In this document: positions 23,873-61,487 of the stretch, one piece after another
Position numbering within the stretch: position 1 is the first letter of the stretch
Layout of the letters: each line of letters starts with the position of its first letter
Origin: Turnera subulata
Taxonomy: Eukaryota > Streptophyta > Magnoliopsida > Malpighiales > Passifloraceae
DNA length: 64,000 nt
Assembly (NCBI GenBank): GCA_028386065.3
Contig: JAKUCV010000349.1
Coordinates: forward strand, 50,138 to 114,137
Direction of reading: 5' to 3'
Position numbers and translations under genes: made by a program
The notes under the pieces: model-generated
Seen by the model: the letters and a program-made list of their open reading frames with translations, nothing else
Told to the model about the DNA's origin: nothing
The model's database searches: none

Positions 23873-26800
23873 ATGGAGGATTTGTGGCTGATCTTCTGTG
23901 GGAAGACAGGCATTTCAGATGATGCAATTCCTGCCACTTGCTGTATCAGTAACACATTAATCATTGGCTTCGATATTTTGCTTCTAGCTATGCTCTTACT
24001 CAATTTGATGCAAAAGTCATCAAGAACACACAAAATTCCACCAAGAGTTGGTGCATTATCGTCTCTTCAAATAACTTCTGCCATATTTAGTGGATGTATT
24101 GGTTTTGGGTACTTGTGCTTGGCGCTATGGATTTTAGAAGAAAAGTTGAGGAAAACTAAGACTGCTTTACCTCTGAATAGGTGGCTGACACTGTTGTTCC
24201 AGGGGTGTACATGGTTGCCTGTGTGTTTAACTGTAAGCCTTCAAGGAAAACATCTTCCAAAACTGCCATCGCAATTGCTGCCAATTCTTGCATTATTGTT
24301 TTCTGGGATAGTCTCTGGTTTGTCTCTATACTCTGCATTTTTGGCCAAAAGAATATTGATCAAGACAGTGTTGGATGTTCTGTGTTTTCCTGGTGCAATA
24401 ATGTTACTACTGTGTAGTTATAAGGTGCCTAAACATGAAGACTTTGATGATAGTGATAATGGACTTGATGCGCCTTTAATTGGTGAGGCCAGTAGGATTG
24501 GTAAAACTGATTTTGTTTCCCAAGATACTCCAATTGCTAAAGCAGGATTCTTCAGTACAATGTCATTTTGGTGGTTGAATCCACTTATGGAAAGGGGAAA
24601 AGATAAGACTCTTGAAGAAGCGGACGTCCCCAAGTTGCACCCAGCAGATCAAGCGGAAAGCTGTTACATGAGTTACCTAGAGAAATTTAACAAGCAAAAA
24701 CAAGCTGACCCATCATCTCAACCGTCACTATTGAGGATAATTATCTTATGTCACTGGAAAGATATTCTCATTTCTGGGTTCTTTGCCATGCTTAAAGTAC
24801 TAAATTTATCAGCTGGTCCTCTTCTTATTAATGCCTTTATTTTGGTTTCTGAAGGAAAAACAAGCTTCAAATATGAAGGATATGTATTGGCATTGGCACT
24901 TTTCATTGCAAAAAGCTTGGAGTCCTTGTCACAAAGGCAGTGGTATTTCAGGTCCAGGCTGATTGGTTTGAAAGTTAGGTCCTTGCTTACGGCTGCAATT
25001 TATAAGAAGCAACTGAGGTTATCAAATGCCGGTCGATTGATGCACTCAGGTGGCGAGGTAATGAACTATGTTGCGGTTGATGCTTATAGAATTGGCGAGT
25101 TTCCTTACTGGTTTCATCAGACATGGACAACAAGCTTCCAGCTTTGCATCTCTCTTGTAATTCTCTTCCGTACACTGGGGCTAGCAACATTTGCAGCCTT
25201 AGCGGTGATAATACTTACTGTTCTATGCAACGCTCCGATTGCAAAGTTACAACATAAGTTTCAGTCGAAACTTATGGTGGCACAAGATGAGAGATTGAAG
25301 GCAACATCCGAGGCCCTTGTCAACATGAAGGTGCTGAAATTATACGCTTGGGAAACCCATTTTAGAAAAGCTATAGAAAATTTGAGGAAGGTGGAGCATA
25401 AATGGCTATCTGCTGTACAATTCCGAAAAGGATATAATGACTCACTCTTTTGGTCTGCACCTGTTTTAGTATCTGCTGCTACCTTTGGTGCATGCTATTT
25501 CCTTAAAATTCCCCTGCATGCTAATAACGTTTTTACTTTTTTGGCAACTTTACGACTAGTTCAAGAACCAGTTAAGTCCATCCCCGAAGTTATTGGGGTG
25601 GTCATTCAAGCCAAGGTGGCCTTTTCTCGCGTAGTAAAGTTCCTTGAGGCACCAGAGCTGCAGAGCAGAAATGTTAGGCAAGAGCTCACAGCAGAGAGTG
25701 TGAACCATACTATTTATCTGAAGTGCGCCAATTTTTCGTGGGATGAAAAAACATTAAAGCCTGCACTGAGAAATGTATGTCTGGAGGTTAGGCCTTGTGA
25801 GAAGGTGGCAATATGTGGTGAAGTTGGCTCTGGGAAATCAACCCTTCTGGCAGCAATTCTTGGAGAAGTTCTAAACACCGAGGGAACTGTAAGTGTCGCT
25901 TGCCTTTTTTACTTTCTTTTGAGTATACCTAAAAGGCATCTCAATCTTTTGGGAACTAGGTCTTAACATTTGTGCCATGGTGCACTTGGCATATTGTTTT
26001 GAAATGAGTTCATTTGTCCTAATTAAAGTAATCTAGTTGTCTTTTTCCCTTCAATATAAATAACTGTTCTTTAGCAATTAACTATCTTCACTTTTGTCCA
26101 TTTTCTCGGATACAGATTCAGGTTTATGGGAGGATAGCCTATGTTTCTCAAACTGCTTGGATTCAGAGTGGAACAATACGAGATAATATCTTATTTGGGT
26201 CAGCAATGAGTAGCCAGAGATATCAGGACACTCTTGAGAGATGTTCGTTGGTAAAGGACCTTGAACTACTTCCTTATGGCGATCTCACTGAAATAGGTGA
26301 AAGAGGAGTCAATCTCAGTGGAGGCCAAAAGCAGCGAATTCAACTTGCCCGTGCTCTCTATCAGGATGCTGATATATATCTGTTGGATGATCCATTCAGT
26401 GCTGTGGATGCAGAAACTGCAACAAACTTATTCAAGGTACTGAAAAATTCTTGCTTCAAAGGCAAAAGATACCTTAACTGCTAACTAGCTTTTGTGGTGA
26501 AACCTAACTTACATAATGACAGGAATACGTCATGGGAGCACTGGCAAGGAAGACCGTCTTACTTGTGACGCATCAAGTGGATTTCCTGCCAGCATTCAAT
26601 ATGGTGTTGGTTAGTGACTATCTAACTATCAAGCATATGTTTGTGCTTGCTTTATTCTTTTATGTAAAAGTTTAATCTCCTTCTAGTATCCTAATGTGAC
26701 GCATTGGATTTTTCATCAGTTGATGGCAGATGGAGAAATTCTACAGGCAGCTTCTTATAATGAGTTATTGTCCTCCAACCAAGAATTTCAAGAGCTTGTC

Positions 26801-29770
26801 AATGCGCACAAGGAGACTGCAGGTTCTCAAAGCATGGCTGAGGTTACTTCCCCTCTGGAACGTTCTTCTGCTAGGGAGATCAAGAAGAGTTATTTGGAGA
26901 AGCAAGAGATGGGTTCCAAAGGAGATCAACTGATAAAGCAGGAAGAGAGGGAAGTAGGGGACACAGGGTTGAAGCCTTATATTCAGTATCTGCGCCAGAA
27001 CAAAGGATACTTGTACTTGTCCCTCGCTGCTCTTGGTCATCTTGCTTTTATGATCGTTCAGCTACTACAAAACGCTTGGATGGCAGCTAATGTTGACAAC
27101 CCTCATGTTAGTACACTGAAGTTGATTGCAGTCTACTCGCTAATTGGATTTACTTCGATCCTCTTCTTGCTTTGGAAATCTATTTATACAGTAGTTTTGG
27201 GTCTTGAATCATCCAAGTCACTATTTAAACAGCTACTAAATTCTCTTTTTCGTTCCCCTGTGTCTTTCTATGACGCTACACCTCTGGGAAGAATACTCAG
27301 CCGGGTAAGCATCTCAATCAGAAAATATTGGATGCCAAAAAGCGCAACTGGATGCAACTAATATTGGATGCTGTGTGTCTATCAGGTTACATCTGATCTG
27401 AGTGTTGTTGATCTTGACGTTCCTTTCAACTTAGTCTTGGCAGTGGTCTTTACCATAACTTTTTCCACTACCCTTCTAGTACTGACTGTTATTACCTGGC
27501 AAGTGTTGTTTGTCGCCATACCAATGGTTTATCTAGCCACCCGTTTACAGGTAATTTTTACAATGGCCCTCTAAATGTAGTACTCAGCAGGAGGAGTCTC
27601 TATTAATCTCCTTAGATTGTCACTTGCTGAAGAACATTTTTGCACTCTTTTTTGGAAACGTATGATATTACCAATGCTTTTTCTTGCTCACTAGATAAAA
27701 CAGGCATCTTCTTTGAACTGTTTAGTAGTTAAAAACATTGATTTCTCTTTCTGAAGTTCAAAAAATTTATGCCTTTACCTATTTTCAGAGATATTACTTT
27801 GCCACTGCAAAAGAGTTAATGAGGATCAACGGCACTACCAAGTCTTTAGTGGCAAATCATTTAGCTGAATCTGCAGCAGGAGCCGTGACCATAAGGGCTT
27901 TTCAGCAGGAAGAGCGCTTCTTTGCTAAGAATCTTGACCTCATTGACACAAATGCCAGTCCTTTCTTTCATAATTTTGCGGCAAACGAGTGGTTGATTCT
28001 ACGACTAGAGACACTCAGTGCAACTGTGCTTGCTTCTGCAGCACTCTGCATGGTTTTGCTTCCTCCTGGGACTTTTAGCTCTGGTCAGTACAACTATCAT
28101 GATGATCCAGGAAAAAATAATTATCTCGTCTTGGTACATTCTAATCTACTTATGATGCTCTTATAAATGCTAGAACACAAGTTTATGAATCTTCTATAGC
28201 AAAACATGTTAATATAATGACCGACTCTATTAAATGCAGGACTTATCGGAATGGCACTTACATATGGTCTTTATTTAAACATGGCCCTTGTCGCCTCAAT
28301 CCAATACCAGTGCACCATGGCAAACTACATAATTTCTGTTGAGAGGCTTGATCAGTATATGCATTTACCAAGTGAAGCGCCTGAGGTGATAGAGGATAAT
28401 CGTCCTCCACTCGACTGGCCAGCAGTGGGCAAAGTAGTTTTCTCTGATTTGCAGGTAAAATCTCCTTCGTTTAGTGTAAAGGTTGACTACTGTAAATAGT
28501 CAGAATATTGATCAATCTTCAAGATTGAAACAGATAAGGTACAGGCCAGATGCACCTCTAGTGCTTCGAGGGATTAGCTGTACATTTCAAGGAGGGCACA
28601 AAATTGGCATTGTTGGCAGAACAGGAAGTGGAAAGACTACTCTCATCAGTGCTTTGTTTCGGCTGGTTGAGCCTGCAGGAGGGAAGATCATTGTGGATGA
28701 AATTGACATCTCAAAAATTGGACTTCATGACCTGAGGTCAAGATTCGGAATAATACCACAAGAACCAACCCTTTTCAATGGGACTGTGAGATACAATTTG
28801 GATCCCTTGTCACAACATACCGACCAGGAAATTTGGGAGGTAAATGACTAATGCTTTATCATCCATGGTTATTAAAGCAAAAACAGTAAATCAATCTAGC
28901 TACTGCTTGAAGTGCCTGCACATGCTTCTTGAGTGTGTACTCTCCCTGTAATTTTGCTAGGTTCTTGGGAAGTGTCAGCTTCGGGAGGCTGTTCAGGAGA
29001 AAGAGGAGGGGCTGGACTCTGGGGGTACATTCTTAACCCTTTTAAGTTTGTAGTCTCTCTATTTTGCATTTGTATAACAGATTACTAGATGAATATCATT
29101 GACTTGCTTCCTCTACAGTTGTGGGGGATGGATCGAATTGGAGCATGGAGCAAAGACAATTGTTTTGCTTAGGCCGTGCACTTTTGAGGAGGAGTCGGAT
29201 ATTGGTGCTTGATGAAGCAACAGCATCAATAGACAATGCAACTGACTTGATTTTGCAGAAAACTATCCGAACTGAATTCGCGGATTGCACTGTGATCACA
29301 GTAGCTCACAGGATACCTACTGTGATGGATTGTAACATGGTGCTTGCCATCAGTGACGGTAAGTTTTACCCTTCCCACATATGTCTGTGGCTTTGCTGGC
29401 TCTCCAAGATAGTTACAGGAATTTCCATAATCCGTAGGTCTAGTTAAAGGAATACTTGGAAGTAAGTTTCACCCACTTGGGGACTGTCTCAGTGGAGGTT
29501 GCTAATATCTAGAATCCCAATGTTGATCTGAAAAGTGGAAGTGCCTCTTAGTATCATATGAGAGAGCTGAAATGAAGCATAATTTAAAAACATAAGATAT
29601 GCTCTAGTTCATTTACGTATACATGAGAAGTATGACAATATTTTTGATGAATCTCAGGAAAACTAATGGAGTACGATGAGCCGATGAAGTTGATGGAGAC
29701 GGAAGGCTCTCTGTTCGGGCAGCTTGTTAAGCAGTACTGGTCACATTTTCAGTCTGCAGAGTTACAATGA
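23873..29770 (+). CDS. ABCC10-type ABC transporter, copy 1, 1468 aa
   Basis: Eleven exons join in frame: 23873-25888, 26116-26436, 26523-26609, 26720-27304, 27386-27550, 27789-28083, 28240-28454, 28534-28839, 28961-29024, 29119-29358, 29658-29770. Layout is TMD0-TMD1-NBD1-TMD2-NBD2, as in plant ABCC/MRP pumps, usually vacuolar and exporting glutathione conjugates and other organic anions. NBD1: Walker A GEVGSGKS, signature LSGGQ (~740), Walker [11 protein letters not shown] with Asp at the catalytic position, normal for ABCC NBD1. NBD2: Walker [10 protein letters not shown] (~1257), Walker B ILVLDE (E1384), His1415. Odd: the NBD2 signature reads WSMEQRQ instead of WSMGQRQ (E1362), with W to G at 1351 and E to G at 1354. 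It also lacks 11 N-terminal residues present in copies 2 and 3. Closest to Arabidopsis ABCC10 by family recall; substrate unknown. Confidence 0.92.
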
Positions 29771-32700: not shown

Positions 32701-35591
32701 TATATTAGCCAGTCTCTTGTGTTTTTTTTTTTTTTTGGATCAGAAGTAAACTGTAATACGAACCCAATATTAGCCAGTCTCGCGGCGTGGCACAAAGAAA
32801 CTAGCAAAATTAAGCATTTTAAAAACTAGATCAAAGAACAAATAACCTTAACAACCCAACCAACAGGAGAAAGATCAGAACTGGCCGGCCGGCCACCACT
32901 AACTGCTTTTGCACAGAGAGGCTTTACAATCCGATTTAACTATATTATATATAACGTCAAATCTGTACAGAATAATTATGCTGACGATCGAAATTATAAC
33001 GTACTTATTTTATTTTATTCATATGGCTATCTAATTCCTTGAGACTTTAATTAATTTTATCACTCAGAACAATATTCAACTGGTGTATGAGTTTTTCTGT
33101 ATATAATTCGGTGAACGAAACATCTTGGTCTCGTTCTCAAAGAAAATCCTCCAAAGAACATCCTGCAACAAATTGAAATGGCACCAGCAGCAATCCCTTG
33201 TTACAGCACCCATCATCATACCTACCTAGGTTTTACCATTCCAAAAAATCCATGCAGTAGTAGTATCCAGTTTCCAAAGACCAGCCAGAGGAGCTTCCCA
33301 AACACTGTCATCAAAAGGTAGAAAGCTTAATTTTTTTTACTGATAATTTTGTTTTTGCCGCATTAAATTATATTTTTCTTCACTCCAAAAACTTTTTCTG
33401 CATACTCTCCTCTCTTTCTTTTTTTTTTTTTCTACCTTCTCCTCCATCCACCACTTGTGGCGGTGTTTGCCGCTGCCACAGCGACGACCAAGCCAATGAT
33501 ATTATTGGGCCATATATAGTATTACTATTAATTAACTGTGTTGGTCTTTGTTTTGGCACTTAAAATCCTGTTAGTTGGAGGACTACGGCAGCAGCTGCAA
33601 TATTGATGCCTGGCAAAAAAGATGTAGGCCAGGTTTGTTCAATAGATGGTCAAGGAAAGGAGTGAATTATGTGGGTCTAGCTAGCTCGGTTTATAAAGAA
33701 CAAAACAAACCTTTCCAGGATTTTAAATATGGGATTTCACTTTTTAGCAGACATATCAACGTGAAAACTTAAAATTTCATCATATAAATAACATCATGAT
33801 GATCAACACCTGCAACAAAAATTAAATAACATCAGATACATATGTCACCGCCCACACAGCGCTCTATTACAGTTTAGTTGATCACTTAGTAGACCATCCC
33901 TCAATCTTTCACTCACCAACTTAATTACGATTTGAATTCATATGCCTTGATTTATATGATATGATTATCAAAAACAGAAGAGAGGAAGGCGGAGATGCAT
34001 GATACGTTCAGGGCAATTTCATCAGCTTGAATTAAATAAAAAGGAAAAAAGGGGTGGATGCCACTTCTAATGTAAACTTGTGGCGATAAGATAATCTGTA
34101 AATATTATTAATTACAAACTCTTCATGAACCTCCACTCAACCTTTTTTTTTCTATTTTTTTAAAGAAATCTGAGGTGACAACTTGGTACTCTTTTTGTGT
34201 CAGAATCACCTGGAGGAAAAAGATGGCGCTGTAATTAATTATGTTGACCTTTCGGGAAAGGATAATTAATGACCCGGGACATAATACGGTTCAATAATTT
34301 GGGTGGGAGTGGAAGTGACTCCTCCTTGGCTTGTGTCCCTGTAAGTTTTTTTTTCTTTTACACAGGATTTCTTTCATAGTAGAACAGAAGCAGGGAAGGG
34401 CACATTATATTCTGCTACCGGAGAGAGACGTGAGCCATGACGCCATGTTTCTACGTACCATATATATAGCATTTGCGCTTCTAGCTTGCTTCTCTTTGTC
34501 TTTGCCCGAACAGTAATTTCCTTGTCTTTGTCTTTGCCCGATCCTAACAGTATTCCATGTCTTTGTCTCCACACTCAAATCTGTTAGTATATTCCATCCA
34601 CATCCACTATCTACTACCTAGTATCCATACCTATTAACTACAGAAACAGACCGCGCCCAACTAAACTCCGAATTTATGTCAAAAACGTAATCAAGATTGA
34701 CCCAAGAGGCGAAAACATCCTCATCAGTGGCCAAGATTAAAAGATCGTTAAACTACTGTTTATGGCGAATGAAATTAGAAGAAGTCACCCGTTGGATTGT
34801 TAAGCAACATTTTGTGGTTTAACATTTCAGGTTTGGTGCAATGTTTCCTTCAGGTTTGTTCGTTTCTGTCACGTTTTGTTTCTTTCTGTAAATTCTTCTT
34901 GTTTGTTTTTTACCCCCTTTTTAGATCCTTTCCTACTCTATTATCTGGCGTCGGATTTTGGTTTTGTTTTCCACGTTTTCATTTTCAATGTACGTGTCGT
35001 GTGTGGTGGGGGTTGCAAAGAAGACTTTTTGTTCATTCCTTTGTTTTTTAATACCGTGATTAGGTAAAATCTTGTATTGATAGTTGCACTAGTTGGTTGT
35101 TTTGTAGGAAATACGAAGAAGCTCTTGTATGTTGCACTAGTTGGTTAGTGAGAAGAGGAGAGGCCAGGAGTGGAGTTCAGGCTTTTGGCAAGTAAGTGTT
35201 GTCCTTAATTTCAAGTTTAAAACATTAACATCTTTTCATTTCATCTAAGTGTAAACTTCTATTTGGTGCAATTGTTTATCTTAATTGGTTTTTACTTTTT
35301 AGACGAATAGAGAAGCCTGTTTTAGCTCCACTTCTTCAACTTCTCCTTGTGGTCGATGTAAATCCGATTCATGCTATGGGCCCGATTGTTTGTTTAAATC
35401 TTTTTTATTTGCGTGTTTAGTGTTCTCCCGGAATAATGCCACCTGCTATTCCCCAGTATTTTGCTTTGTTATCTATTGAATTACAGATAAAGAATGGGAT
35501 TTACCTTTTTGTATAGCATAAACAAGGTCTTTTCTTCGTTTTGTGTGCAAGTAATGCAGAATTTGGAGGGTCAAGAGAAAAAGGAAAGATA
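29771..35591. other. Long spacer between ABCC copies 1 and 2
   Basis: 5.8 kb, AT-rich. About 30083-30235 and 32350-32510 are diverged copies of each other (both start TATCCAGGTTCTGTTTAGTTT and share TTGCATGTGC). A 24-bp tandem repeat lies at 31961-32020. Part of the 5' flank (33580-33790) duplicates that of copy 1. An AGAGACGTGAGCCATGACGC block near 34427 recurs at about 42901 before copy 3. The copy 2 leader intron runs 35192-35559. No intact gene otherwise. Confidence 0.45.
31961..32020. repeat. 24-bp tandem repeat
   Basis: TGCTTCAACTTCTGTCAGAA plus A-run is repeated exactly at 31961 and 31985, with a partial third unit (TGCTTCAGCTTCTT) at about 32010. No gene covers it. Confidence 0.8.
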
Positions 35592-38500
35592 ATGGAGGAT
35601 CTATGGCAGACCTTCTGTGGGAAGTCGGGAATTTCAGATGCTGATGGAATCCCATCCCTTTCTAACTTTTTGCTCGCCAGTCCAGCCACTAGTTGTATCA
35701 CTAACGCATGGATCATTGGCTTCTCCATTTTGCTTCTTGCTATGCTCTTATTCAATTTGATACAAAAGTCGTCAAGAACAGATAAAAGTCCATCAAGATT
35801 TCATGGGTTATCATCTTTGCAAATAGCTTCTGCTATATTTAATGGCTGCATTGGTTTTGTCTACTTGTGCTTGGGCATATGGAATTTAGAAGAGAAGTTG
35901 AGGAAAACCCAGACTGCTTTTCCTCTGAATAGATGGCTGTTACTGTTGTTCCAGGGGTGTACATGGTTGCCAGTGGGTTTAACCATAAGCATTCATGGGA
36001 AACACCTTCCAAAAATGCCATCGAGATTAATGGCAGTGCTTGCATTCTTGCTTTCTGGGATTGTCTGTGGTTTATCTCTATACTCTGCTATTCTGGCCAA
36101 AAGAGTATTGATCAAGACAGTGTTAGATGTTCTGTGTTTTCCGGGTGCAATAATGTTAGTATTATGTACTTATAGGGTGCCAAAACACAAAGAGATTAAT
36201 GATGAGGATGGACTTTATGCGCCTTTAAATGGTGAGGCCACTAGGATTGGTAGAACTGATTCTGCTACCCAAGTTACTCCATTTGCTGACGCAGGATTCT
36301 TCAGTAAAATGTATTTTTGTTGGTTGAATCCACTCTTGAAAAGGGGGAAAGTTAAAACTATTGAAGATGAGGATATACCCAAGTTGCGCCCGGCAGATCG
36401 AGCAGAAAGCTGCTATATGATGTACCTAGAGCAATTTAACAAGCACAAGCAAGCCGATCCATCATCTCAACCATCACTGTTGAAGATGATTATCTTATGT
36501 CATTGGAAAGAGATTCTCATTTCTGGGTTCTTTGCTATGCTAAAAGTACTTACTTTATCAGCTGGTCCTCTTCTTCTTAATGCCTTTATTTTGGTTGCTG
36601 AAGGAAAAGCAAGCTTCAAGTACGAAGGGTATGTATTGGCATTGACACTTTTCATTTCAAAAAGCTTGGAGTCCTTGTCACAAAGGCAGTGGTATTTCAG
36701 GTCCAGGCTGATTGGTTTGAAAGTTAGGTCCTTGCTTACGGCTGCAATCTATAAGAAGCAACTGAGGTTATCAAATGCCGGTCGATTGATGCACACAGGT
36801 GGTGAGATAATGAACTATGTCACGGTTGATGCTTATAGAATTGGCGAGTTCCCCTTCTACTTTCATCAGACATGGACAACAATCTTCCAGCTCTGCATCT
36901 CTCTTGTAATTCTCTTCCGTGCAGTGGGGCTAGCAACATTTGCAGCCTTAGTGGCGATAATAATCACGGTTCTATGCAACACTCCAGTTGCGAAGTTACA
37001 ACATAAGTTTCAGTCCAAGCTTATGGTGGCACAGGATGAGAGATTGAAGGCTAGCTCTGAGGCTCTTGTTAACATGAAAGTGCTGAAATTATATGCTTGG
37101 GAAACCCATTTTAAGAATGCCATAGAAGAGTTGAGGAAAGTGGAGTATAAATGGTTGTCAGCTGTACAATTGCGAAGAGCATATAATGGCTTGCTCTTCT
37201 GGTCCTCACCTATTTTGATATCTGCTGCTACCTTTGGAGCATGCTATTTACTGAAAATTCCTCTGCATGCCAATAACGTTTTTACTTTTGTGGCAACTTT
37301 ACGACTAGTTCAAGAACCAATTAGGGCTATCCCTGAGGTTATTGGGGTGGTCATTCAAGCGAAGGTGGCCTTTTCTCGCATAGTAAAGTTCCTTGAGGCA
37401 CCGGAGCTGCAAAGCAGAAATACCAGGCAAGAAAAGCTCAATGCAGAGAGAGCAAATCATACCATTTATATCAAGTCAGCCAATTTCTCGTGGGATGAAA
37501 AAACAATAAAGCCTGCACTGAGAAATGTATGTCTGGAGGTTAGGCCTTGTGAGAAGGTGGCAATATGTGGTGAAGTTGGCTCTGGGAAATCAACCCTTCT
37601 GGCAGCAATTCTTGGAGAAGTTCTAAATACTGAGGGAACGGTAAGTGTTCCTTGTCTTGTTTACTTTCTTTTGATACCTGAAAGGCATCTCAATCTATTG
37701 GGAATTAGGTCTTAACATTTGTGCCATGTTGTTTTGAAATGAGTTCATATGTCCTAATTAAAGTATTCTAGTTCTCTTTTGCCTTCAATATAGATAGCTG
37801 TTCATTAGCAATTAACTGTCTTCACTTTTGTCCATTTTTTCGGATACAGATTCAGGTTTATGGGAGGACAGCCTATGTTTCTCAAACTGCTTGGATTCAG
37901 ACTGGAACAATACGAGATAATATCTTATTTGGATCAGCAATGAATAGCCAGAGATATCAGGACACTCTTGAGAGATGTTCGTTGGTAAAGGACCTTGAAC
38001 TACTTCCTTACGGCGATCTCACTGAAATAGGTGAAAGGGGAGTCAATCTAAGTGGAGGTCAAAAGCAACGAATTCAACTTGCCCGTGCTCTCTACCAGGA
38101 TGCTGATATATATCTGTTGGATGATCCATTCAGTGCTGTTGATGCAGAAACAGCAACAAACTTATTCAATGTACTGGAACTTTCTTAAAAGCAAACAATT
38201 TCTAACTGCATGACTTTTTACCCTATGGTGGAATCTAAGTTAAACATTGACAGGAATACGTGATGGGAGCACTTACAAGGAAGACTGTCCTACTCGTGAC
38301 GCATCAAGTTGATTTCCTGCCAGCATTTGATTCGATCTTGGTTAGTGGCTGTAAATTAGTAATGCATATTGAAACTTGGGTTTGGTTTGGTGCTTTCTTT
38401 ATTAGTTCTCTATAAAAGTTTAATCTCTTTCCAGTAATCTAATGTGACACAATACATTTTTGTTATCAGTTGATGGCAGATGGAGAAATCTTACAGGCAG

Positions 38501-41496
38501 CTTCTTATCATGAGTTATTGTCTTCAAGCCAAGAATTTCAGGAGCTTGTCAATGCACACAAGGAGACTGCAGGTTCTGAAAGACTGGCTGAGGTTACTTC
38601 TGCTCAGAAACGTTCTTCTGCTAGGGAGATCAAGAAGAGTGATGTGGAGGAGCAACAGATGGGCTCCAAAGGAGATCAACTCATAAAGCAAGAAGAGAGG
38701 GAAGTAGGAGACACAGGGTTGAAGCCTTATATCCAGTATCTGTGTCAGAACAAAGGATACTTGCACTTCTTCCTGGCTGCTCTTGGGCACCTTATTTTTG
38801 TGATCGGTCAGATATCACAAAACACTTGGATGGCAGCTAATGTTGATAACCCCAATGTTAGTACACTGCAGTTGATTGTGGTCTACTTGCTAATTGGCTT
38901 GACCTCTACTCTCTTCTTGCTTTGTAGATCTATTTCTGCAGTAGTTTTGGGTATTGAATCATCCAAGTCATTTTTTACTCAGCTACTAAATTCCCTTTTT
39001 CGAGCCCCTATGTCCTTTTATGACTCTACACCTCTTGGAAGAATACTTAGCCGGGTAAAGCATCTCAATCAGAAAATATTGGATGTCAAAAAAATGCTAA
39101 TGATGCAACTAATATTAGACTCCTCTGTTTCTGTCAGGTCACATCTGATCTGAGTATTGTTGATCTTGACGTTCCTTTCAGCTTAGTCTTTGCTGTAGCT
39201 GCTACCATAAATGTTTATAGTAATCTTGGAGTACTGACTGTTGTTACCTGGCAAGTGCTGTTTGTCTCCATACCAATTGTTTATCTCGCCAGTCGATTGC
39301 AGGTATGTTCACAATGTCCCTTTAAATGTAGTACTTAGCAGGAGGAGTTTCTTATCTCCTACAATTTTCACTCGTTCATTTTGAAGGATTCTTTTGCTAT
39401 CACTTTGGGAACTGCAGTATATGAGAAATACTTTTTCTTGCCCATTAGATAAAACAGGCAGTTCTTTTCCACGGTTTCCTAGTTAAAATACCAATTTTTA
39501 ATATGCCTTCCCTTGTCCACAGAGATACTACTTTGCAACCGCAAAGGAGTTAATGCGGATCAATGGCACAACCAAGTCTTTAGTAGCGAATCATTTAGCT
39601 GAATCTGTAGCTGGAGCCATGACTATAAGGGCCTTTGAGGAGGAAGAGCGCTTCTTTGCTAAGAATCTTGACCTCACTGACACAAATGCCAGCCCTTTCT
39701 TCCATAATTTTGCAGCAAACGAGTGGTTGATTCAACGGTTGGAGACATTCAGTGCTACCGTGCTTGCTTCTGCAGCACTCTGCATGGTTTTGCTTCCTCC
39801 GGGAACTTTTAGCTCTGGTGAGTAAATAAACTATTGTGATGCACCAACATTTTTCAATTGCCAGGAAACAATTATTTTTTTAATTTACTTATGATACTTT
39901 CAGAAATTCAAGAACACAAGTTTATGAGCCTTCTATAGCAAAAAGGTTAACATAAGGATTCCATTTAATGCAGGCTTTATTGGATTGGCTCTTTCATATG
40001 GTCTTTCACTAAACAACTCCCTCGTTCTGTCAATCCAATACCAGTGCATCATAACAAACTACATAATTTCTGTTGAGAGGCTTGATCAGTATATGCATAT
40101 ACCAAGTGAAGCTCCTGAAGTCCTAGAGGATAATCGTCCCCCACCCATGTGGCCAGCAGAGGGCAAAGTGGTTATCTCTGATTTGCAGGTGAAGTCTCCT
40201 CGGCTTAGCATCAATTTGGCCACTCACAACTGTCAGAAAACTGACGAAGCTTAGCTTGAAACAGATAAGATACAGGCCTGACGGACCTCTTGTGCTCCAA
40301 GGGGTTAGCTGTACATTTCAAGGAGGGCACAAAATTGGCATTGTTGGCAGAACAGGAAGTGGGAAAACAACTCTTATTGGTGCTCTATTTCGCCTGGTTG
40401 AGCCTGCAGGAGGGAAGATTGTCGTAGATGGAATTGACATCTCTAAAATTGGACTTCATGACCTGAGGTCAAGATTCGGAATAATACCACAAGATCCAAC
40501 CCTTTTCAATGGGACTGTGAGGTACAATTTGGATCCATTGTCACAACATACCGACCAGGAAATTTGGGAGGTAAAATCACCATTTCTTATCACCTGTAGT
40601 TGTTAAAGAAGCATCAGGATATCAATTTAAGAGTCTTCATATGCTTCTTAAGTGAGGAATCTCCCTGTAAATTTTGTAGGTTCTTGGGAAGTGTCAGCTT
40701 CTGGAGGCTGTTCAGGAGAAAGATGGGGGCTTGGACTCTTGGGGTACATTATTTTAACACTTCAAGTTTGTGTCTGTGTTTTTATAACTGATTACTGGAT
40801 AATTGTTGACTTGCTTCTATACAGTTGTTGAAGATGGATCAAATTGGAGCATGGGGCAAAGACAATTGTTTTGCTTAGGCCGTGCACTTTTGAGGAGGAG
40901 TCGGATATTGGTGCTTGATGAAGCAACAGCATCAATAGACAATGCAACTGACTTGATTTTGCAGAGAACCATCCGGACTGAATTTGCGGATTGCACTGTG
41001 ATCACAGTAGCTCACAGGATACCAACCGTGATGGATTGTGACATGGTACTTGCCATTAGTGACGGTAAGTTTTACCCTTCCAACTCCTATAACCAAGGCC
41101 AACATTGGCCTCTATGGACTTCCCAGATATCTATGACTTCCTCTTGAAGATGCTTTTGTTCGAAAATTCGTAGTGTTTGCAGTAGCATCCTCTTAGTGGA
41201 CATTGCTAAAATTCTAAGATGATCTGAAGAACATCTTAGAAACAGAAGTATTTGCCGCGGTTCAAGATGGTTGAAATATAAAACATAGTTTAAAACATGA
41301 GAGATGCACTTTGCACTAGTTTGTTTACAATATATCTGAAGAATGCACATTTGTATTATGGTAATGTTTTTGGTGAATTTCAGGGAAAATAGTGGAGTAT
41401 GATGAGCCGATGAAGTTAGTGAAGAGGGAAGGCTCTCTGTTTGGGCAACTCGTCAAGGAATACTGGTCACATTTTCAGTCTGCAGACTCACATTGA
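35592..41496 (+). CDS. ABCC10-type ABC transporter, copy 2, 1479 aa
   Basis: Same 11-exon plan as copy 1: 35592-37640, 37850-38170, 38254-38340, 38470-39054, 39138-39302, 39523-39817, 39974-40188, 40265-40570, 40680-40743, 40825-41064, 41384-41496. Exons 2-11 have the same lengths in all three copies. The frame is open further upstream, but the leader-intron acceptor at 35559 places that stretch in an intron, so translation starts at ATG 35592 ([19 protein letters not shown]). NBD1 carries [13 protein letters not shown] and [13 protein letters not shown]2 carries GRTGSGKTT, a normal WSMGQRQ signature and ILVLDE. No lesion is visible. Likely a vacuolar multispecific anion pump by family; substrate unknown. 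A SINE sits about 250 bp past its stop codon. Confidence 0.92.
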
Positions 41497-43053: not shown

Positions 43054-44228
43054 CACCAGCGATATAACATAACACGCCTCGGGCAGAGAAACTCTCCCTT
43101 TATATTTCCAACACATGATATAGTAATATACAAAGACTTCTATTTCAAGATTGACCCGAAACCTCCTCCTCGCTCTTTAAACCAAGATTAAAGATTGCGT
43201 TTGACTACCCTTTCCTTTTGTGACGGATGAGACCAAAAGAAGCCATTTCTTAGGCTGATAAGCACTTAAGAACCCACATTTGTACTTCTTCAAGATTTCT
43301 GGTTGGTGCAATATTGTTCCCCCCCTTTTTTTTTTTTTGTCGTTTAAATTTTCTTGTGCGTGTGCTTTGCCATCATATTCATACATAATCCTGCGACAGA
43401 TTTTGGTTCTTTTTTTTTTTTTTCCACCGCTTATCTATTTCTTTTAAATACCCAGAAGGGTGGTATTGCCTTTTTCTTTGATTCTTTCTTAGGCCATTCT
43501 TTATAGAGAGTGTCGTGTGTGAATTGCAGAGAAGGCTTTTAATGTCTTTGCTAGCTCCTTTGGTTTGTTTTTTAATGCCGTGATTAGCTATATTCTTGTT
43601 CTTGTCCCTGCTTCTTTTCCCTTATAAATAATTAGTTAGTCGAGGAAGACTTTTGCGGTGAACAGGCAAGTTGATAGCTTTGATGAAACTGGTTATATTC
43701 TGCAGGAAGTACGAAGCTCTCATATGTTGCACTAGTTGGTTAATGAGAAGAGGTGAAGCGGGAGTGCAGTTCAGACTTTTGGCCGAGTAAGTTGTGTCCT
43801 TTCAAGTTCAGTCATAAATATTAGAGTATCTAGATAATGATAGAGATAAGACTTATATTCTGATAATGGTAGAATTGTATATAGTGATCATATAGACAGT
43901 GCTTGTATTTATTCTGCAAATTTGTAAGAATCCTGAGTAGCATCCTGTAGTATACTTTTCAACTTCTCCACTCTGACCTTTTGGTGGTTAATGCAAATCC
44001 CATCCACGCCATGCCCTCAACTGTTTCTTTAAATTGTCCTTATTTTGCTTTTTATGAGTTGTCCTCGAATGATGCTTGCCCGGATTGACCATTTAGCTGT
44101 GTTCCTAGTATTCTGGTTTACAATCCTTAAAATTATTGATAAAGCATTGGATTTACTTTTTGCATAACAAGGACATGGATTTGTGTTGAATGCAATGCAG
44201 AATTTGAAAGGTCAAAGATTTGGGAAAG

Positions 44229-47200
44229 ATGACGGAGGATTTATGGCTGACCTTCTGTGGGGAGTCGGGCATTTCAGATGCTGATGGAATGCTGTCACCT
44301 TCCAATATTTTGCTCCTCAGTCAAGCCACTTGCTGTTCCAATAGCGCATTGATCATTTGCTTCGATATTTTGCTTTTAGCTATGCTCTTATTCAATTTAA
44401 TGCAGAAGTCATCGAGAACAGATAAAATTCCACCAAGATTTCGTGGACTATCATCTTTGCAAATAGTTTCTGCTATATGGAATATCTCTGTTGGGTTTGT
44501 GTATTTGTTCTTGGGCATATGGACTTTAGTAGAGAAGTTGAGGAAAACCCAGACTGCTTTACCTCTAAATAGATGGCTGTTACTGTTGTTCCAGGGGTGT
44601 ACATGGTTGCCAGTGGGTTTAACCATAAGCATTCATGGGAAACATCTCCCTAAGATGCCGCTGCGATTACTGTCAATCCTCGCATTCTTGTTTTCTGGGA
44701 TTGTCTGTGGTTTATCTCTATACTCTGCTTTTTTGGCCAAAAGAGTATTGATCAAGACAGTGTTAGATGTTCTGTGTTTTCCAGGTGCAATAATGTTACT
44801 ACTATGCACTTATAAGGTGCCTAAAAATGAAGACATTGATGATAGTGAAAATGGTCTGTATGCGCCTTTAAATGGTGAGGTCAGTAGGATTGATAAAACT
44901 GATTCTGTTTCCCAAGTTACTCCATTTTCCAAAGCAGGATTCTTCAGTACATTGTCATTTTGGTGGTTGAATCCACTCATGAAGAGGGGCAAAGATAAGA
45001 CTCTTGAAGATGGAGATATACCCAAGTTGCGCCCAGCAGATCGAGCAGAAAGCTGCTATATGATGTACCTAGATCAATTTAACAAGCAGAAACAAGCTGA
45101 TCCATCAACTCAACCATCACTATTGAAGACGATTATCTTATGTCATTGGAAAGATATTCTCATTTCGGGGTTCTTTGCTATGCTAAAAGTACTTACTTTA
45201 TCAGCTGGCCCTCTTCTTCTTAATGCATTTATTTTGGTTGCTGAAGGAAAAGCAAGCTTCAAATATGAAGGGTATATATTGGCATTGACACTCTTCTTTT
45301 CAAAAAGCTTGGAGTCCTTGTCACAAAGGCAGTGGTATTTCAGGTGTAGGCTGATTGGTTTGAAAGTTAGGTCCTTGCTTACGGCTGCAATCTATAAGAA
45401 GCAACTGAGGTTATCAAATGCTGGTCGACTGATGCACTCAGGTGGTGAGATAATGAACTATGTCACGGTTGATGCTTATAGAATTGGAGAGTTCCCTTTC
45501 TGGTTTCATCAGACATGGACAACAAGCTTCCAGCTCTGCATATCGCTTGTAATTCTCTTCCGTGCGGTGGGGCTAGCAACATTTGCAGCTTTAGTGGTGA
45601 TAATAATTACTGTTCTGTGCAACACTCCGCTTGCAAAGTTACAACATAAGTTTCAGTCCAAGCTCATGGTGGCACAGGATGAGAGATTGAAGGCAAGCTC
45701 TGAGGCTCTTGTTAACATGAAGGTGCTGAAATTATATGCTTGGGAAACCCATTTTAAGAATGCCATAGAAAATTTGAGGAAAGTGGAGCATAAATGGTTG
45801 TCAGCCGTACAATTCCGAAAAGCATATAATAGCTTTCTCTTTTGGTCTTCACCTGTTTTAGTCTCTACTGCTACCTTTGGAGCATGCTATTTCCTTAAAA
45901 TTCCGCTGCATGCTAATAACGTTTTCACTTTTGTGGCTACTTTACGTCTTGTCCAAGAACCAATTCGGACTATCCCTGATGTTATTGGGGTGGTCATTCA
46001 AGCAAAGGTGGCCTTTTCTCGTATAGTAAATTTTCTTGAGGCACCAGAGCTGCAGAGAAAAAATATCAGGCAAATGCTCAATGCTGAGTGCGTGAACCAT
46101 AACATTTATATCAAGTCAGCCAATTTTTCGTGGGATGAGAATATATCAAAGCCCACACTGAAAAATGTAAATCTGGAAGTTCGTCCTTATGAGAAGGTGG
46201 CCATATGTGGTGAAGTTGGCTCTGGTAAATCAACCCTTCTGGCAGCAATTCTTGGAGAGGTTCCAAATACTGAGGGAACTGTAAGTGTTCTTTGCCTTCT
46301 TTACTTTCTTTGAATATACATGAAATGAATCACTGTCTTTAGGGAACTAGGTCTTAACATTTGTGCCATGGTGCACTTGGCATCTTGTTTGAAAAAATCT
46401 AATGTAACTCCCCTTCTCCTTGAATATAAATTAGTGTTCTTTAGCAATTAAATTTGTTGGTTTTGTCCATTTTGTGGGATGCAGATTCAGGTTTATGGGA
46501 GGATCGCCTATGTTTCTCAAACTGCTTGGATTCAGACTGGAACAATACGAGATAATATCTTATTTGGTTCAGCAATGAATAGCCAAAGATATCAGGACAC
46601 TTTAGAGAGATGTTCGTTGGTGAAGGACCTTGAACTACTTCCTTATGGAGATCTCACTGAAATTGGCGAAAGAGGAGTTAATCTGAGTGGAGGCCAAAAG
46701 CAGCGAATTCAACTTGCCCGTGCTCTCTATCAGGATGCTGATATATATCTGTTGGATGATCCATTTAGTGCTGTTGATGCAGAAACAGCGACAAACTTAT
46801 TCAATGTACTTGAATTTTCATGAAATGCAAAAAGTACCTTAACTGCTTGTTTTTCTAGCCTTTGGTGAAATCTGACTTGCATACTGACAGGAATACGTGA
46901 TGGGAGCATTGGAAAGGAAGACCGTCTTACTAGTGACGCATCAAGTTGATTTCTTGCCAGCCTTCGATTCAGTCTTGGTTAGTGGCTTTTTATCAATAGT
47001 GCATATTGAAACTTCGGTTTTAGTTTTGTGCTTTCTTCATTTTTTCTCAATAAAAATTTATTCTCTTTCCTTTATGCTAATGTGAACACAATGGTTTTTG
47101 TTATCAGTTGATGGCAGATGGAGAAATCCTACGGGCAGCTTCTTATCATGAGTTATTTTCCTCAAGCAAAGAATTTCAGGAGCTTGTCAATGCGCACAAG

Positions 47201-50200
47201 GAGACTGCAGGTTCTGAAAGACTGGCCGAGGTGACTTCTCCTGAGAAAAGTTCTTCTGCTAGGGAGATCAAGAAGAGTTATGTGGAGAAAAAACCGACGG
47301 TTTCCAAAGGAGATCAACTGATAAAACAAGAAGAGAGAGAAGTAGGAGACACAGGGTCGAAGCCTTACATCCAGTATCTGTGTCAGAACAGAGGATACCT
47401 GTACTTCTCGCTGGCTGCTCTTACTCAGGTTACTTTTGTGATCTGTCAGATATCACAAAACTCTTGGATGGCAGCTAACGTTGACAACCCCCACATTAGT
47501 ACACTGCGGCTGATTGCAGTCTACTTGCTAATTGGATTTATCTCAACTTTCTTCTTGCTCTGTAGATCTATTTCAGCAGTTGTTCTGGGTCTTCAATCAT
47601 CCAAGTCATTGTTTTCCCAGCTACTAAATTCTCTTTTTCGTGCGCCTATGTCTTTTTATGACTCTACACCTCTTGGGAGAATACTTAGCCGGGTAAGCAT
47701 CTCAATCAGAAAACATTGGACATGAAAAAATGCTTTTGATCTTGATCGTTGTGAAGCGAATATGTGACTGTAGTCAATCTATTGAACTAATATCAGATTT
47801 CCTCTCTGTCTGGCAGGTCTCATCTGATCTGAGTATTGTTGATCTTGATGTTCCCTTCAGCTTAATCTTTGCTGTCGCAGCTACCACAAATTTTTACAGT
47901 AATCTTGGAGTACTGGCTGTTGTTACCTGGCAAGTGCTGTTTGTCTCGATACCAGTGGTTTATCTATCCATTCGTTTACAGGTAACTGTCTACATTCTCC
48001 TACCAATGAGCTGTAGCTCAAGTGCTACTCTTCAGGGCCTAAGGTCTTGAGTTTTGAGTCTTAGTCGTAGCCTTTAAAACTAAAAAAAAAATTACATTCT
48101 CCCTTTAAATGTAGTACTCAGCAAGAGGAGTTTCTATTATTCTCCTATTATTGTCACATGCTGAATAAAATTTTTTTGCTATCACTTTGTGAAATGCATG
48201 ATATTAGCAATAATTTTTCTTGTCCAATAGATTAAACAGTGATTCCTTTCCCATGGTTTCCATTTACAAAAATAATTTCTCTTTGTGAACTTCAAAAAAA
48301 TATGTGTTTTGCTTATTTTCAGAGATATTACTTTGCCACTGCAAAAGAGTTAATGCGGATCAACGGAACAACCAAGTCTTTAGTAGCAAATCATTTAGCT
48401 GAATCTGTGGCAGGAGCCATGACCATAAGGGCTTTTGAGGAGGAAGACCGCTTCTTTGCTAAGAATCTTGACCTCACTGACACAAACGCCAGTCCTTTCT
48501 TTCACAGTTTTGCAGCAAACGAGTGGTTGATTCAACGGTTGGAAACATTCAGTGCCACCGTGCTTGCTTCCGCAGCACTCTGCATGGTTTTGCTTCCTCC
48601 TGGGACTTTTAGCTCTGGTGAGTGAATAAACTATCATGATGCACCCCCTTTTTGAACTGCCAGAAAACAGTTATCTCAATTGGTATAGTTAATCTACTTT
48701 TGATGTTCTTGGAAACTCAAGAACATAATTTTCTTAGTTTTCTGTAGCAAACAAGTTGATATAAGGACTGTTTCAATGCAGGATTTATTGGAATGGCACT
48801 TTCATATGGTCTATCATTAAACATGTCCCTCGTCTTTTCAATCCAAAACCAGTGCACCATAGCAAACTACATAATTTCTGTTGAGAGACTCAATCAGTAT
48901 ATGCATGTACCAAGTGAAGCCCTTGAGGTGATAGAGGATAATCGTCCCCCACCTAAGTGGCCAGCAGTGGGCAAAGTTGTTATCTCTGATTTGCAGGTGA
49001 AATCTCCTTTCCCTAGCATCAATTTTACTACTGAAAATCGTCAGATTGCTGATGAATCTTAATTTGAAACAGATAAGGTATCGGCCTGACGCACCTCTAG
49101 TGCTTCGAGGGATTAGCTGTACATTTGAAGGAGGACACAAAATTGGCATTGTTGGCAGAACAGGAAGTGGGAAGACTACTCTTATTGGTGCTCTATTTCG
49201 GCTGGTTGAGCCTGTGGGAGGAAAGATCGTTGTAGATGGAATTGACATCTCTAAAATTGGACTTCATGATCTGAGGTCAAGATTCGGAATAATACCACAA
49301 GATCCAACCCTTTTCAATGGGACCGTGAGATACAATTTGGATCCCTTGTCACAACATACAGACCAGGAAATTTGGGAGGTAAATCACCAATTCTTCAGCT
49401 GCCGTGGTTGTTAAAGCAGGAACAAGTTCTACACCTTGAGAAGTCTGCACATGCTTATTAAGTGTGTAATCTTCCTGTGAATTTTGTAGGTTCTTGGGAA
49501 GTGTCAGCTTCAGGAGGCTGTTCAGGAGAAAGAGGGCGGCCTGGATTCTTGGGGTACATTATATTAACACTTTTATCTTTCAATTTTGGGTTATTGTCAC
49601 TGATTACTGAATGATTATTGACGCTTTCTATACAGTTGCGGAAGATGGATCAAATTGGAGCATGGGGCAAAGACAATTGTTTTGCTTAGGCCGTGCTCTA
49701 TTGAGGAGAAGTAGGGTATTGGTGCTCGATGAGGCAACAGCATCAATAGACAATGCAACTGATTTGATTTTGCAGAGAACCATCCGGACTGAATTTGCAG
49801 ATTGCACTGTGATCACAGTAGCTCACAGAATACCTACCGTGATGGATTGTAACATGGTACTTGCCATCAGTGACGGTAAGTTTTACCCCTCCAACTCCCA
49901 TATATGTGTATGACTGAGCTGCCTCTTGAAGATAGTTTTGTTCTTAGAAAGTCCTGATGTTGAACTTTTCTTGGATGTCCGTGATCCGGAAGTCTATTTA
50001 CTGGAATACTCGGCTGTAAGTTGCACCTCTTAGCAAGGGTGGCTTTGCCTTTGTGAATGTGCTAAAATTGAGAAACCCAGTATTGATCTGAAAGATAAGA
50101 ACATACTACATCAGAAGTGTTCGCTGCTTTTTTTATAGAGAGCTGATGCAAAGCATAGTTTGAAATATTAGAGATGCACTTCCACTAGTTCATTTACTTA

Positions 50201-54425: not shown

Positions 54426-55055
54426 ATTTTATCTACCAAATTGATTATTGGTAATTGTGACCAAATGATGCAAATGTTATTAATGGTAAAACAAATGTTA
54501 TTACTGAGTGTAACGATTTATTTAGGGGTTTTGTTGAGTCAAGTTATTGGCGAATTATTTAAGATCGATACGATGATAACTCAAACTCAACTTAATTTTT
54601 TACCAATTTTGGGGCGAGCTTTTATCAAGCGAATTATGCTCGAGCTCGGTACAAGTTGACTTGCTACACTTACGAACCTACCCAAATTCTCAATTTGGGA
54701 ATAAACAAGCCAAAGCTGCATACATTAGATTCAAACTTAATTCAGTTAATTCTAATTTAAATAACAAGCTTCATTGAACTCAATTTCGGACATTTTCTTA
54801 ACGGATTGCTGCTCTCATCATGAATTTATTTCATACTTTTCATTCAATCTAGAATGATGATGCTTACCATATCAGAACTCTATTGCTATCTTGTATTGGT
54901 TTGAAGCTTGAACTGATGTTTTTTCAGTACAACTCGAAATCTTCATTCCCTCCCCTAAAGAAAGAAATCGAATAATTTTTAACAAAAAAAGAATTTCGAA
55001 AATTCCAATTCCCTCGTGCACGGTCATGTGCCCATGTGTGATACAAATACAAAGC

Positions 55056-59456: not shown

Positions 59457-61487
59457 ATGAAAATCGTTGCTCATCTTTCCCGCCGTTTTTCAACTTCTAA
59501 ACAACCATACTCTGTTCTATCTGTCCAGGAGCCGGGATTGGCCCCCCGGTTCTCTGCTCTCACTGAGGAATTGTGTGAAAAGATTTTGGACCAATACCCA
59601 GATGTCAAAACCCTGAAAAAACTCCACTCCAAAGTTTTCCGCGACCAACATCTTCACTCAAACCCTTCTCTTGGCATCAAATTGATGAGGGCTTATGCTG
59701 CCGGCGGCGAGCCGAGACTCACACGCCACGTGTTCGATGAAATTACAGACAAGAATGTCGTGTTCTTCAATGTTATGATCAGGAGCTACGTTAACAACAG
59801 TCTATTCCCTGACGCTTTACTTGTTTACAAAAGCATGTCCACCCAAGGTTTTGATCCTGATAATTATACGTACCCTTGTGTGTTAAAGGCATGCTCTGGC
59901 TGGCCATTAAACACCCAACCGTACGTTTAAGTACCACGACAACACTTTCAACCCGAACTGAGCTTAGAAAAGCATCCTTTACCCAATTAAAGGTACATAC
60001 CCTTTACGGACAGATACCGCCGCCGACCCGTCTAAAAACTACTCTACGGCTCATCTCTATATCAAAGAACCTTAAGTTACCAACGACCAATACGTGTCAA
60101 TGGGAGGTTTGACGATGCGTTGGAGCTTTGTAAGGAAATGGAGACCTTAACGCTAAGACCTGATGCTGGCACAATGGGCAGCCTACTGCCAGCTGTGGCT
60201 AACACATCCTTTGCGAATGTTTTATATGTCAAAAATATGTTCATGAAGCTGGCGGATAAGAGTCTGATATCTTGGAATGTGATGATTGCGGTGTATGTAA
60301 AAAATGCAATGCCCAACGAAGCGGTTGACCTGTATATAGAAATGGAAGCTCGTGGGGTTGAACCTGATGCAGTTTCTATTGCGAGTGTTCTACCTGCTTG
60401 TGGAGATCTTTCAGCTGTGGTTTTAGGAAGGAGAATCCATGAGTATGCCGACTGCAAGAAGCTTCGACCAAATTTGCTTTTAGAGAATGCATTGATTGAT
60501 ATGTACGCAAAATGTGGATGCATAGAGGAAGCAAGAACAGTATTTGAGGAAATGCATTTCCGGGATGTTGTCTCATGGACTTCTATGCTGTCTGCTTATG
60601 GTATGAGCGGCCAAGGCCGTGATGCTGTGATGCTCTTTGAAAAAATGCGGAAATCAGGTTTCAGTCCAGATCCGGTTGCCTTTGTTTCTGTGTTAGCTGC
60701 ATGCAGTCATGCGGGTTTGTTGGATGAAGGATGGAGTTGCTTTAATTTGATGTCAGAATATGGAATACGGCCAGGGATAGAACATTTTGCTTGTATGGTG
60801 GATCTATTAGGACGTGCAGGGAAAATTAATGAGGCCTATGGTATGATTAGGCAGATGCCAATGGAACCAAATGAAAGAGTCTGGGGAGCTCTGTTGAGTG
60901 CCTGTCAGGTTTATCCAAATATGGAAATTGCTGTTGTGGCTGCTGATCATCTTTTTGAATTGGCTCCTGAGCAATGTGGTTATTATGTCTTGTTATCCAA
61001 CATCTATGCCAAGGCTGGAAGATGGAAAGATGTTGCGGCTGTAAGATCGATAATGAATAGTAAGGGTATAAAGAAGATTCCCGGCATCAGCAATGTGGAG
61101 CTGAGGGATCATGTTTACTCCTTTCTTGCTGGTGACAGGTCACATCCGCAGTCGCCAGAGATCTATAAAGAGTTGGATATATTAGTTGGGAAGATGAAGG
61201 AATATGGTTATATGCCCGAGACTAATTCTGCCCTTCACGACGTGGAAGAGGAGGACAAGGAATGTCACCTAGCAGTTCATAGTGAGAAGCTAGCCATCGT
61301 GTTTGCTATACTGAATACCAAGCCCGGGACTCCAATCAGAATTACCAAGAATCTCCGTGTCTGTGGGGACTGCCATATTGCTGCCAAGCTTATATCTAAG
61401 ATCACTGAGCGTGAGATCATCATTAGGGATACTCATCGGTTTCACCACTTTCACCTTGGAGTTTGCTCTTGTGGTGACTTTTGGTGA
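59457..61487 (+). CDS. DYW-type PPR editing factor (At3g49142-like), interrupted by a complemented segment
   Basis: Single-exon PLS-class PPR gene of 676 codons if read through. The frame is open two codons further upstream only via a TTG codon; the ATG at 59457 gives MKIVAHLSRRFSTSK, a likely mitochondrial or plastid targeting start. PPR repeats run to ~residue 490, then E/E+ motifs and a DYW deaminase-like domain: zinc ligands HSEK (HxE) and CGDCH (CxxC), ending GDFW instead of DYW. Such factors bind organelle RNA and direct C-to-U editing. As printed, the frame hits a stop at 59928-59930. From about 59901 to 60098 the sequence is the unreversed complement of the expected strand; base-wise complement restores 66 open codons in the same frame. 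Both flanks share one frame, so the underlying gene was intact. Confidence 0.88.
59899..60098. other. ~200-bp segment complemented but not reversed
   Basis: Read as given, neither strand encodes PPR sequence and several stops occur. Complement each base in place, left to right, and the PPR gene frame gives motifs such as VGMQIHGAVVKVGLDSNLFV and DIVSWNSMVAGYAQ. The last joins NGRFDDALELCKEM at 60099. The right edge is exact at 60098|60099. The left edge lies between 59899 and 59902, because several starts give acceptable residues there (CSATGN, CSGTGN or CSGSGN). Starting at 59899 makes exactly 200 bases. Confidence 0.95.

Follow-up and report, generated by a model that had tools for sequence, protein, structure and literature searches.

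To judge from their pattern, a 200-bp block within a PPR-DYW gene of Turnera subulata and dozens of other stretches (at most about 200 bp each) in the same assembly, all printed as plain complement, are very likely the product of a strand-handling fault in data processing. These blocks are a property of the assembly as stored and not of the window, by which we mean the whole stretch of 64,000 nucleotides analyzed here (C313:50138-114137). The assembly searched comprised 518.7 Mb in 7,125 contigs, and contig C313 as stored was the same as the window sequence over a 3,000-bp stretch that included the block. Searches covered sequence outside C313:114138 to about 129252, a stretch that adjoins the window and is N in the stored genome.

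A complemented block in a PPR-DYW gene

The affected gene is At3g49142-like, and the complemented stretch (block 1) lies between its 5' and 3' parts, as follows.

59457..59898, + strand: 5' part of the PPR-DYW gene, an ATG-started open frame with PPR_2 at 1.6e-11, co-linear with contig C252
59899..60098, no strand assigned: block 1, 200 bp of plain complement, unreversed; 200/200 against C252 after complementing, 131 bits with the orthologue HMM
59928..59930, + strand: first in-frame stop due to block 1, by the codon table; the others are at 59988 and 60033
60099..61487, + strand: 3' part of the gene with PPR repeats and E, E+, and DYW deaminase domains, by Pfam and identity to C252

As printed, the gene is not one open frame: from the ATG at 59457 to the stop at 61485-61487, it contains three in-frame stops, all within block 1, which causes the reading frame to end at codon 158. 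When 59899-60098 was complemented in place, 0 of the 3 stops remained and a single open frame of 676 amino acids was obtained. Complemented positions 59901-60098 comprise 66 whole codons, TGNLWVGMQIHGAVVKVGL...VSWNSMVAGYAQ, joined to NGRFDDALELCKEM at 60099, and this bears out the claim of a first-pass annotation, made from the sequence alone, that complementing opens 66 codons in the frame of both flanks. Pfam identified the complemented piece as PPR (PF01535, 3.1e-6) and gave no match to the block 1 piece as printed, and the right junction of the block is crossed by a PPR repeat in the restored protein (residues 203-229). The 3' part by itself matched DYW (1.9e-41), E_motif (1e-22), and PPR_2 (2e-41), and the restored protein, which belongs to the PLS class, matched PPR_2 (2.9e-62), E_motif (1.2e-22), E+ (4.3e-10), and DYW (3.6e-41).

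The restored 676-amino-acid protein has relatives in many flowering plants, including protein P0001 at 79% identity and a Salix brachista protein at 80%. No protein from the species itself was recognizable among the best 120 matches, the best of which reached 79-80% with the restored protein and 82% with the 3' part as the query. The restored protein thus resembles genes of the At3g49142 type as a full-length relative, whereas the gene as printed departs from them by stopping at codon 158.

The identity of the exchange was examined by scoring 144 recodings of block 1 (24 base permutations, 2 directions, and 3 frames) against an HMM of 120 orthologous proteins. The top score, 131 bits (7e-41), went to plain complement read in the gene's own frame, and the runner-up among the 144 recodings reached 19.8 bits, so the fit of the plain complement exceeds chance. 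The printed, reversed, and reverse-complemented versions were all outside the best 12 of the 144. The orthologues were collected by searching with the restored protein; a search with the unaltered 3' part alone listed many of the same ones.

A normal counterpart on a second contig

When window 59700-60300 was used as a genome query, another contig, C252, matched on either side of block 1 but not inside it. After complementing, 59899-60098 is identical to C252:13845-14044 at 200/200 bases, and the forward alignments of both flanks abut block 1 in C313 as well as in C252. Both edges of the block are exact because a complemented base never equals itself, and the earlier description of 59899-60098 as unreversed plain complement is in this way confirmed to the base. 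Identity between C252 and the window flanks was 96% upstream and 99.5% downstream (60099-61414). C252 is probably the other haplotype, and likely an allelic contig, which is normal through the stretch of block 1. The same assembly therefore holds a normal second copy of the locus (200/200 after complementing).

C252 is itself damaged in this gene, with one N and a loss of about 55 bp at the DYW end (window 61415-61469 against C252:15351), so neither contig has an intact PPR-DYW gene as printed. The earlier statement that the gene is non-functional holds for the printed file but does not extend beyond it, since the likely allelic C252 is normal through the block 1 stretch. Elsewhere, about 6.3 kb of C252 (2720-8983) is absent from the window (at about 54918-54954) and is partly related to other C313 repeats; this extra sequence is likely an allelic insertion.

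Further complemented blocks in the assembly

A second block was revealed by aligning plain-complemented C313 to C313 and C252. Block 2 occupies C313:1518-1710 (193 bp), has identical best edges against 5/5 other copies of the repeat in which it lies, and is, once complemented, identical to two other repeat copies along the whole block. In a genome search with C313:1000-2300, many other copies aligned on both sides of block 2, and no match from another copy covered the block itself (query 519-711). With 800 bp of the block 2 repeat, plain-complemented, as the genome-wide query, block 2 was recovered together with one block on each of two more contigs: C1623, where it fits as about 188-201 bp, and C6439, where it measures at least about 101 bp, the left edge being soft in both.

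Block 3 was defined by comparing contigs C4876 and C1355, which agree at 180/180 bases after complementing and are flanked by sequence with 98% identity on the right and 95-96% on the left. A Markov-type model weakly favored C1355 as the contig with the complemented version. C1355 was rejected in this role, since 4/4 fetched copies of the class that is interrupted at this stretch have the C1355 form. Copies of the class that aligns straight through show differing edges against the C1355 form, which identifies C4876 as the complemented partner.

A genome-wide series in one repeat family

The C4876 repeat belongs to a family with many copies that are 97-99% alike across the left flank. In a normal search with the C4876 stretch, 9 of 40 scored copies, C4876 included, aligned straight through, and 31 were interrupted like C1355, resuming at query position 418 or 419 in 30 cases and at 496 in 1. 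Ten further copies were fetched, 4 of the interrupted class and 6 of the straight class. All 4 interrupted copies had the C1355 form, and all 6 straight-class copies carried complemented blocks with differing edges and lengths of 145, 162, 184-197, 161, 159, and 197-201 bp.

When the plain complement of the 636-bp repeat was searched genome-wide, at least 40 matches on 39 contigs were found (40 scored of 68 candidates). The 40 listed matches were 112-200 bp long, some possibly shortened where they stop at the query end, and were spread over query positions 46-635; no two of the 40 shared a pair of edges. Twenty loci from this list were taken with their flanks, and 20/20 were complemented in place, 8 of them in minus-strand repeats, with fitted lengths of 151-201 bp and soft ends to 203. 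At 20/20 of these loci, in-place complement outscored a reversed or reverse-complemented middle block, these alternatives being fitted on a coarse 12-bp grid. Together with block 1, block 2, the blocks of C4876, C1623, and C6439, and the 6 straight-class copies, the 20 loci made up 31 blocks compared with their flanks, all of which were complemented in place; 13 of the 40 listed matches stand outside this comparison.

None of the matched or fitted blocks was longer than about 200 bp. Inspection by eye of the junctions of 16 sharp-edged blocks gave no clear common motif, the largest skew noted being G as the last block base in 8/16. The blocks thus lie at unrelated loci, have private edges, and show a length limit of an algorithmic kind, the value of about 200 bp being derived from matched lengths within a single repeat family.

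Controls and detection

Several searches addressed the specificity of the signal. Genome-wide, recoding the 636-bp repeat query by either of the two remaining symmetric four-letter exchanges gave 0 candidates. The fetched loci (257 kb) were scanned with the 22 recodings other than complement: 16 of them, each changing three or four letters, had 0 hits, and the 6 two-letter swaps did have hits, with the two best matches of each at the same place or at its C252 counterpart. Escherichia coli 16S rDNA served as a control from other assemblies, in a collection of 5,426 genomes: a complemented stretch of 701 bp matched none of 20,395 E. coli records, against 37,559 places matched by the normal sequence.

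Two further repeat families, with a combined length of 876 bp, gave 0 matches when searched as complement. Block density is therefore apparently uneven by family, with at least 40 listed matches (68 candidates) for one family, 3 for another, and 0 for the two searched together. Either a real difference in density or merely differing copy numbers may fit these counts, candidate counts from the search tool not being copy numbers.

C313 was also scanned with a Markov model for stretches whose fit improves on complementing. Block 1 ranked among the lowest three windows of 200 bp, but block 2 was not extreme, which makes the scan a weak detector. One scan candidate, near C313:12195, was rejected as a complemented block given its normal alignment to other copies. 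The stretch C313:9902-10101 showed a Markov complement signal as strong as that of block 1; it begins with a motif that we take to be an LTR start, and its signal may for that reason be a false positive.

Where the block letters came from

The source of the letters in the blocks is a separate question from whether the blocks are complemented. Across 27 loci of the 636-bp repeat family, the blocks carried 272 mismatches to the reference versus 382 predicted from the flanks, with fewer mismatches than predicted in 23/27 loci. Strongly diverged copies retained most of their predicted divergence (33 observed versus 39.5 predicted in C1698, 19 versus 21 in C953, and 21 versus 26 in C41), so the blocks of these three did not come from the common young copies. 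Other copies were far below prediction, including C6051 (6 versus 18) and C3816 (3 versus 12.5), and C555 also had much less than predicted. This deficit may reflect selection by search rankings that favor well-matching blocks, and patches from related copies would also fit. Windows of block size with zero differences made up 5.7% to 71% of 4/5 flanking alignments and 0% of the 583-bp alignment just left of block 1. Since such windows are not rare in flanks, the 200/200 and 180/180 identities, which at first suggested patching, need not point to it.

Possible origins of the blocks

A strand-handling fault of the following kind is proposed. A processing step would write or replace short fragments from the opposite strand while applying just one of the two operations that make up reverse-complementing. 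Either a correctly ordered fragment would be complemented once more, or a reverse-strand fragment would be reversed with its complementing omitted; in both variants, plain complement would be left in the right place, and the source of the fragment could be either the locus in question or one closely related to it. Local mis-assembly in its familiar forms (inversion, collapsed repeat, or wrong gap fill) resembles the blocks in being local, with intact flanks and two disagreeing contigs. Known mis-assemblies, however, keep same-strand or reverse-complement sequence, whereas the blocks here are plain complement. To our knowledge, no assembler is documented to write plain-complement blocks, and our search of PubMed Central (CC0, CC BY, and CC BY-SA articles) found neither a description of genome assemblies with blocks complemented in place nor an assembler producing them. 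The earlier argument, by which plain complement can never result from an ordinary assembly error, is not decisive for this assembly, whatever program was used.

The first-pass annotation had suggested an in-silico edit or file-handling fault. An in-silico origin is indeed by far the likeliest, but the idea of a single edit does not survive the many blocks found elsewhere. That the window alone was altered by one deliberate or accidental edit, such as a planted 200-bp test separate from the rest of the genome, would suit a block of exactly 200 bp with exact edges. It is nonetheless very unlikely, and we rejected it: similar blocks, mostly not of 200 bp, occur outside the window in C313 and on many other contigs, and stored C313 equals the window over the 3,000 bp spanning block 1. 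Small inversions, and gene conversion by another copy, are both common in repeats. Their chance of accounting for the blocks is negligible, although the deficit of 272 versus 382 mismatches seen at the 27 loci is what a younger copy, acting as donor in conversion or patching, would produce. Inversion predicts the reverse complement of normal sequence, which is not what the block is; that version scored far lower at 20/20 loci and was absent from the best 12 of 144 recodings at block 1. Conversion could provide the letters of a block but would not complement them.

A real molecular process, in which DNA synthesis or repair in the plant copied lengths of DNA up to about 200 bp in parallel polarity at many gene and repeat loci, so that a duplex came to hold its own sequence as plain complement, is very unlikely. 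We know of no polymerase or ligation chemistry that joins strands in parallel polarity, and such a process would need this synthesis plus a reason for the length limit. In its favor, the exchange is systematic, is limited to complement within the set of recodings tested, and switches abruptly at both edges of block 1, and such DNA has been claimed to exist in GenBank (PMC4942731). Among the 40 listed matches, however, no matched block exceeded 200 bp and no edge pair was shared. As edge pairs are private despite many copies that are 97-99% alike, no listed block looks inherited by copying. The absence of a clear junction motif in the 16 sharp-edged blocks and of any complement match in E. coli 16S genes also counts against a process in the cell.

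The exchange itself has a literature. The first-pass annotation held that a molecule truly reading this way would need a process nobody has described, which is too strong, since Seligmann and co-workers have published claims of exactly the A<->T + C<->G exchange as 'swinger' DNA and RNA (PMC4942731, PMC7027195). One paper states that the description of such GenBank entries as swinger is this author's alone (PMC4942731, PMC7027195), and swinger DNA is claimed in GenBank for nuclear and mitochondrial genes under the A<->T + C<->G rule only (PMC4942731). The blocks resemble swinger sequences in the same systematic base-by-base exchange of four letters with abrupt switches to normal sequence (PMC4942731), and differ in that swinger sequences are there claimed as polymerase behavior, largely in RNA and rRNA (PMC4942731, PMC7027195). 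In contrast to swinger sequences, the blocks have edges that vary by locus, reach about 200 bp at most, and are scattered in one assembly, features that indicate a processing origin. The length limit and the private edges would likewise speak against a polymerase origin in the cell.

Implications and additional observations

If a processing fault is responsible for the blocks, it is of an unusual kind. To ordinary aligners and gene finders, a gene broken by a complemented block of at most about 200 bp would look only as if sequence were missing, and its annotation would be that of a pseudogene or would include wrong exons. Detection is simple: haplotigs or repeats can be aligned and stretches of equal length that fail to align tested for plain complement. 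The pattern described here also offers a plain explanation for some reported swinger sequences, as an artefact of this kind could yield swinger-like database entries as well. Were the blocks to exist physically, antiparallel-only DNA synthesis would be in question. As a separate feature of the window, three same-orientation copies of a unit of roughly 3.9 kb, with 83-86% identity, lie at 23660-27554, 35452-39305, and about 44022-47985 and form a local gene or repeat cluster.
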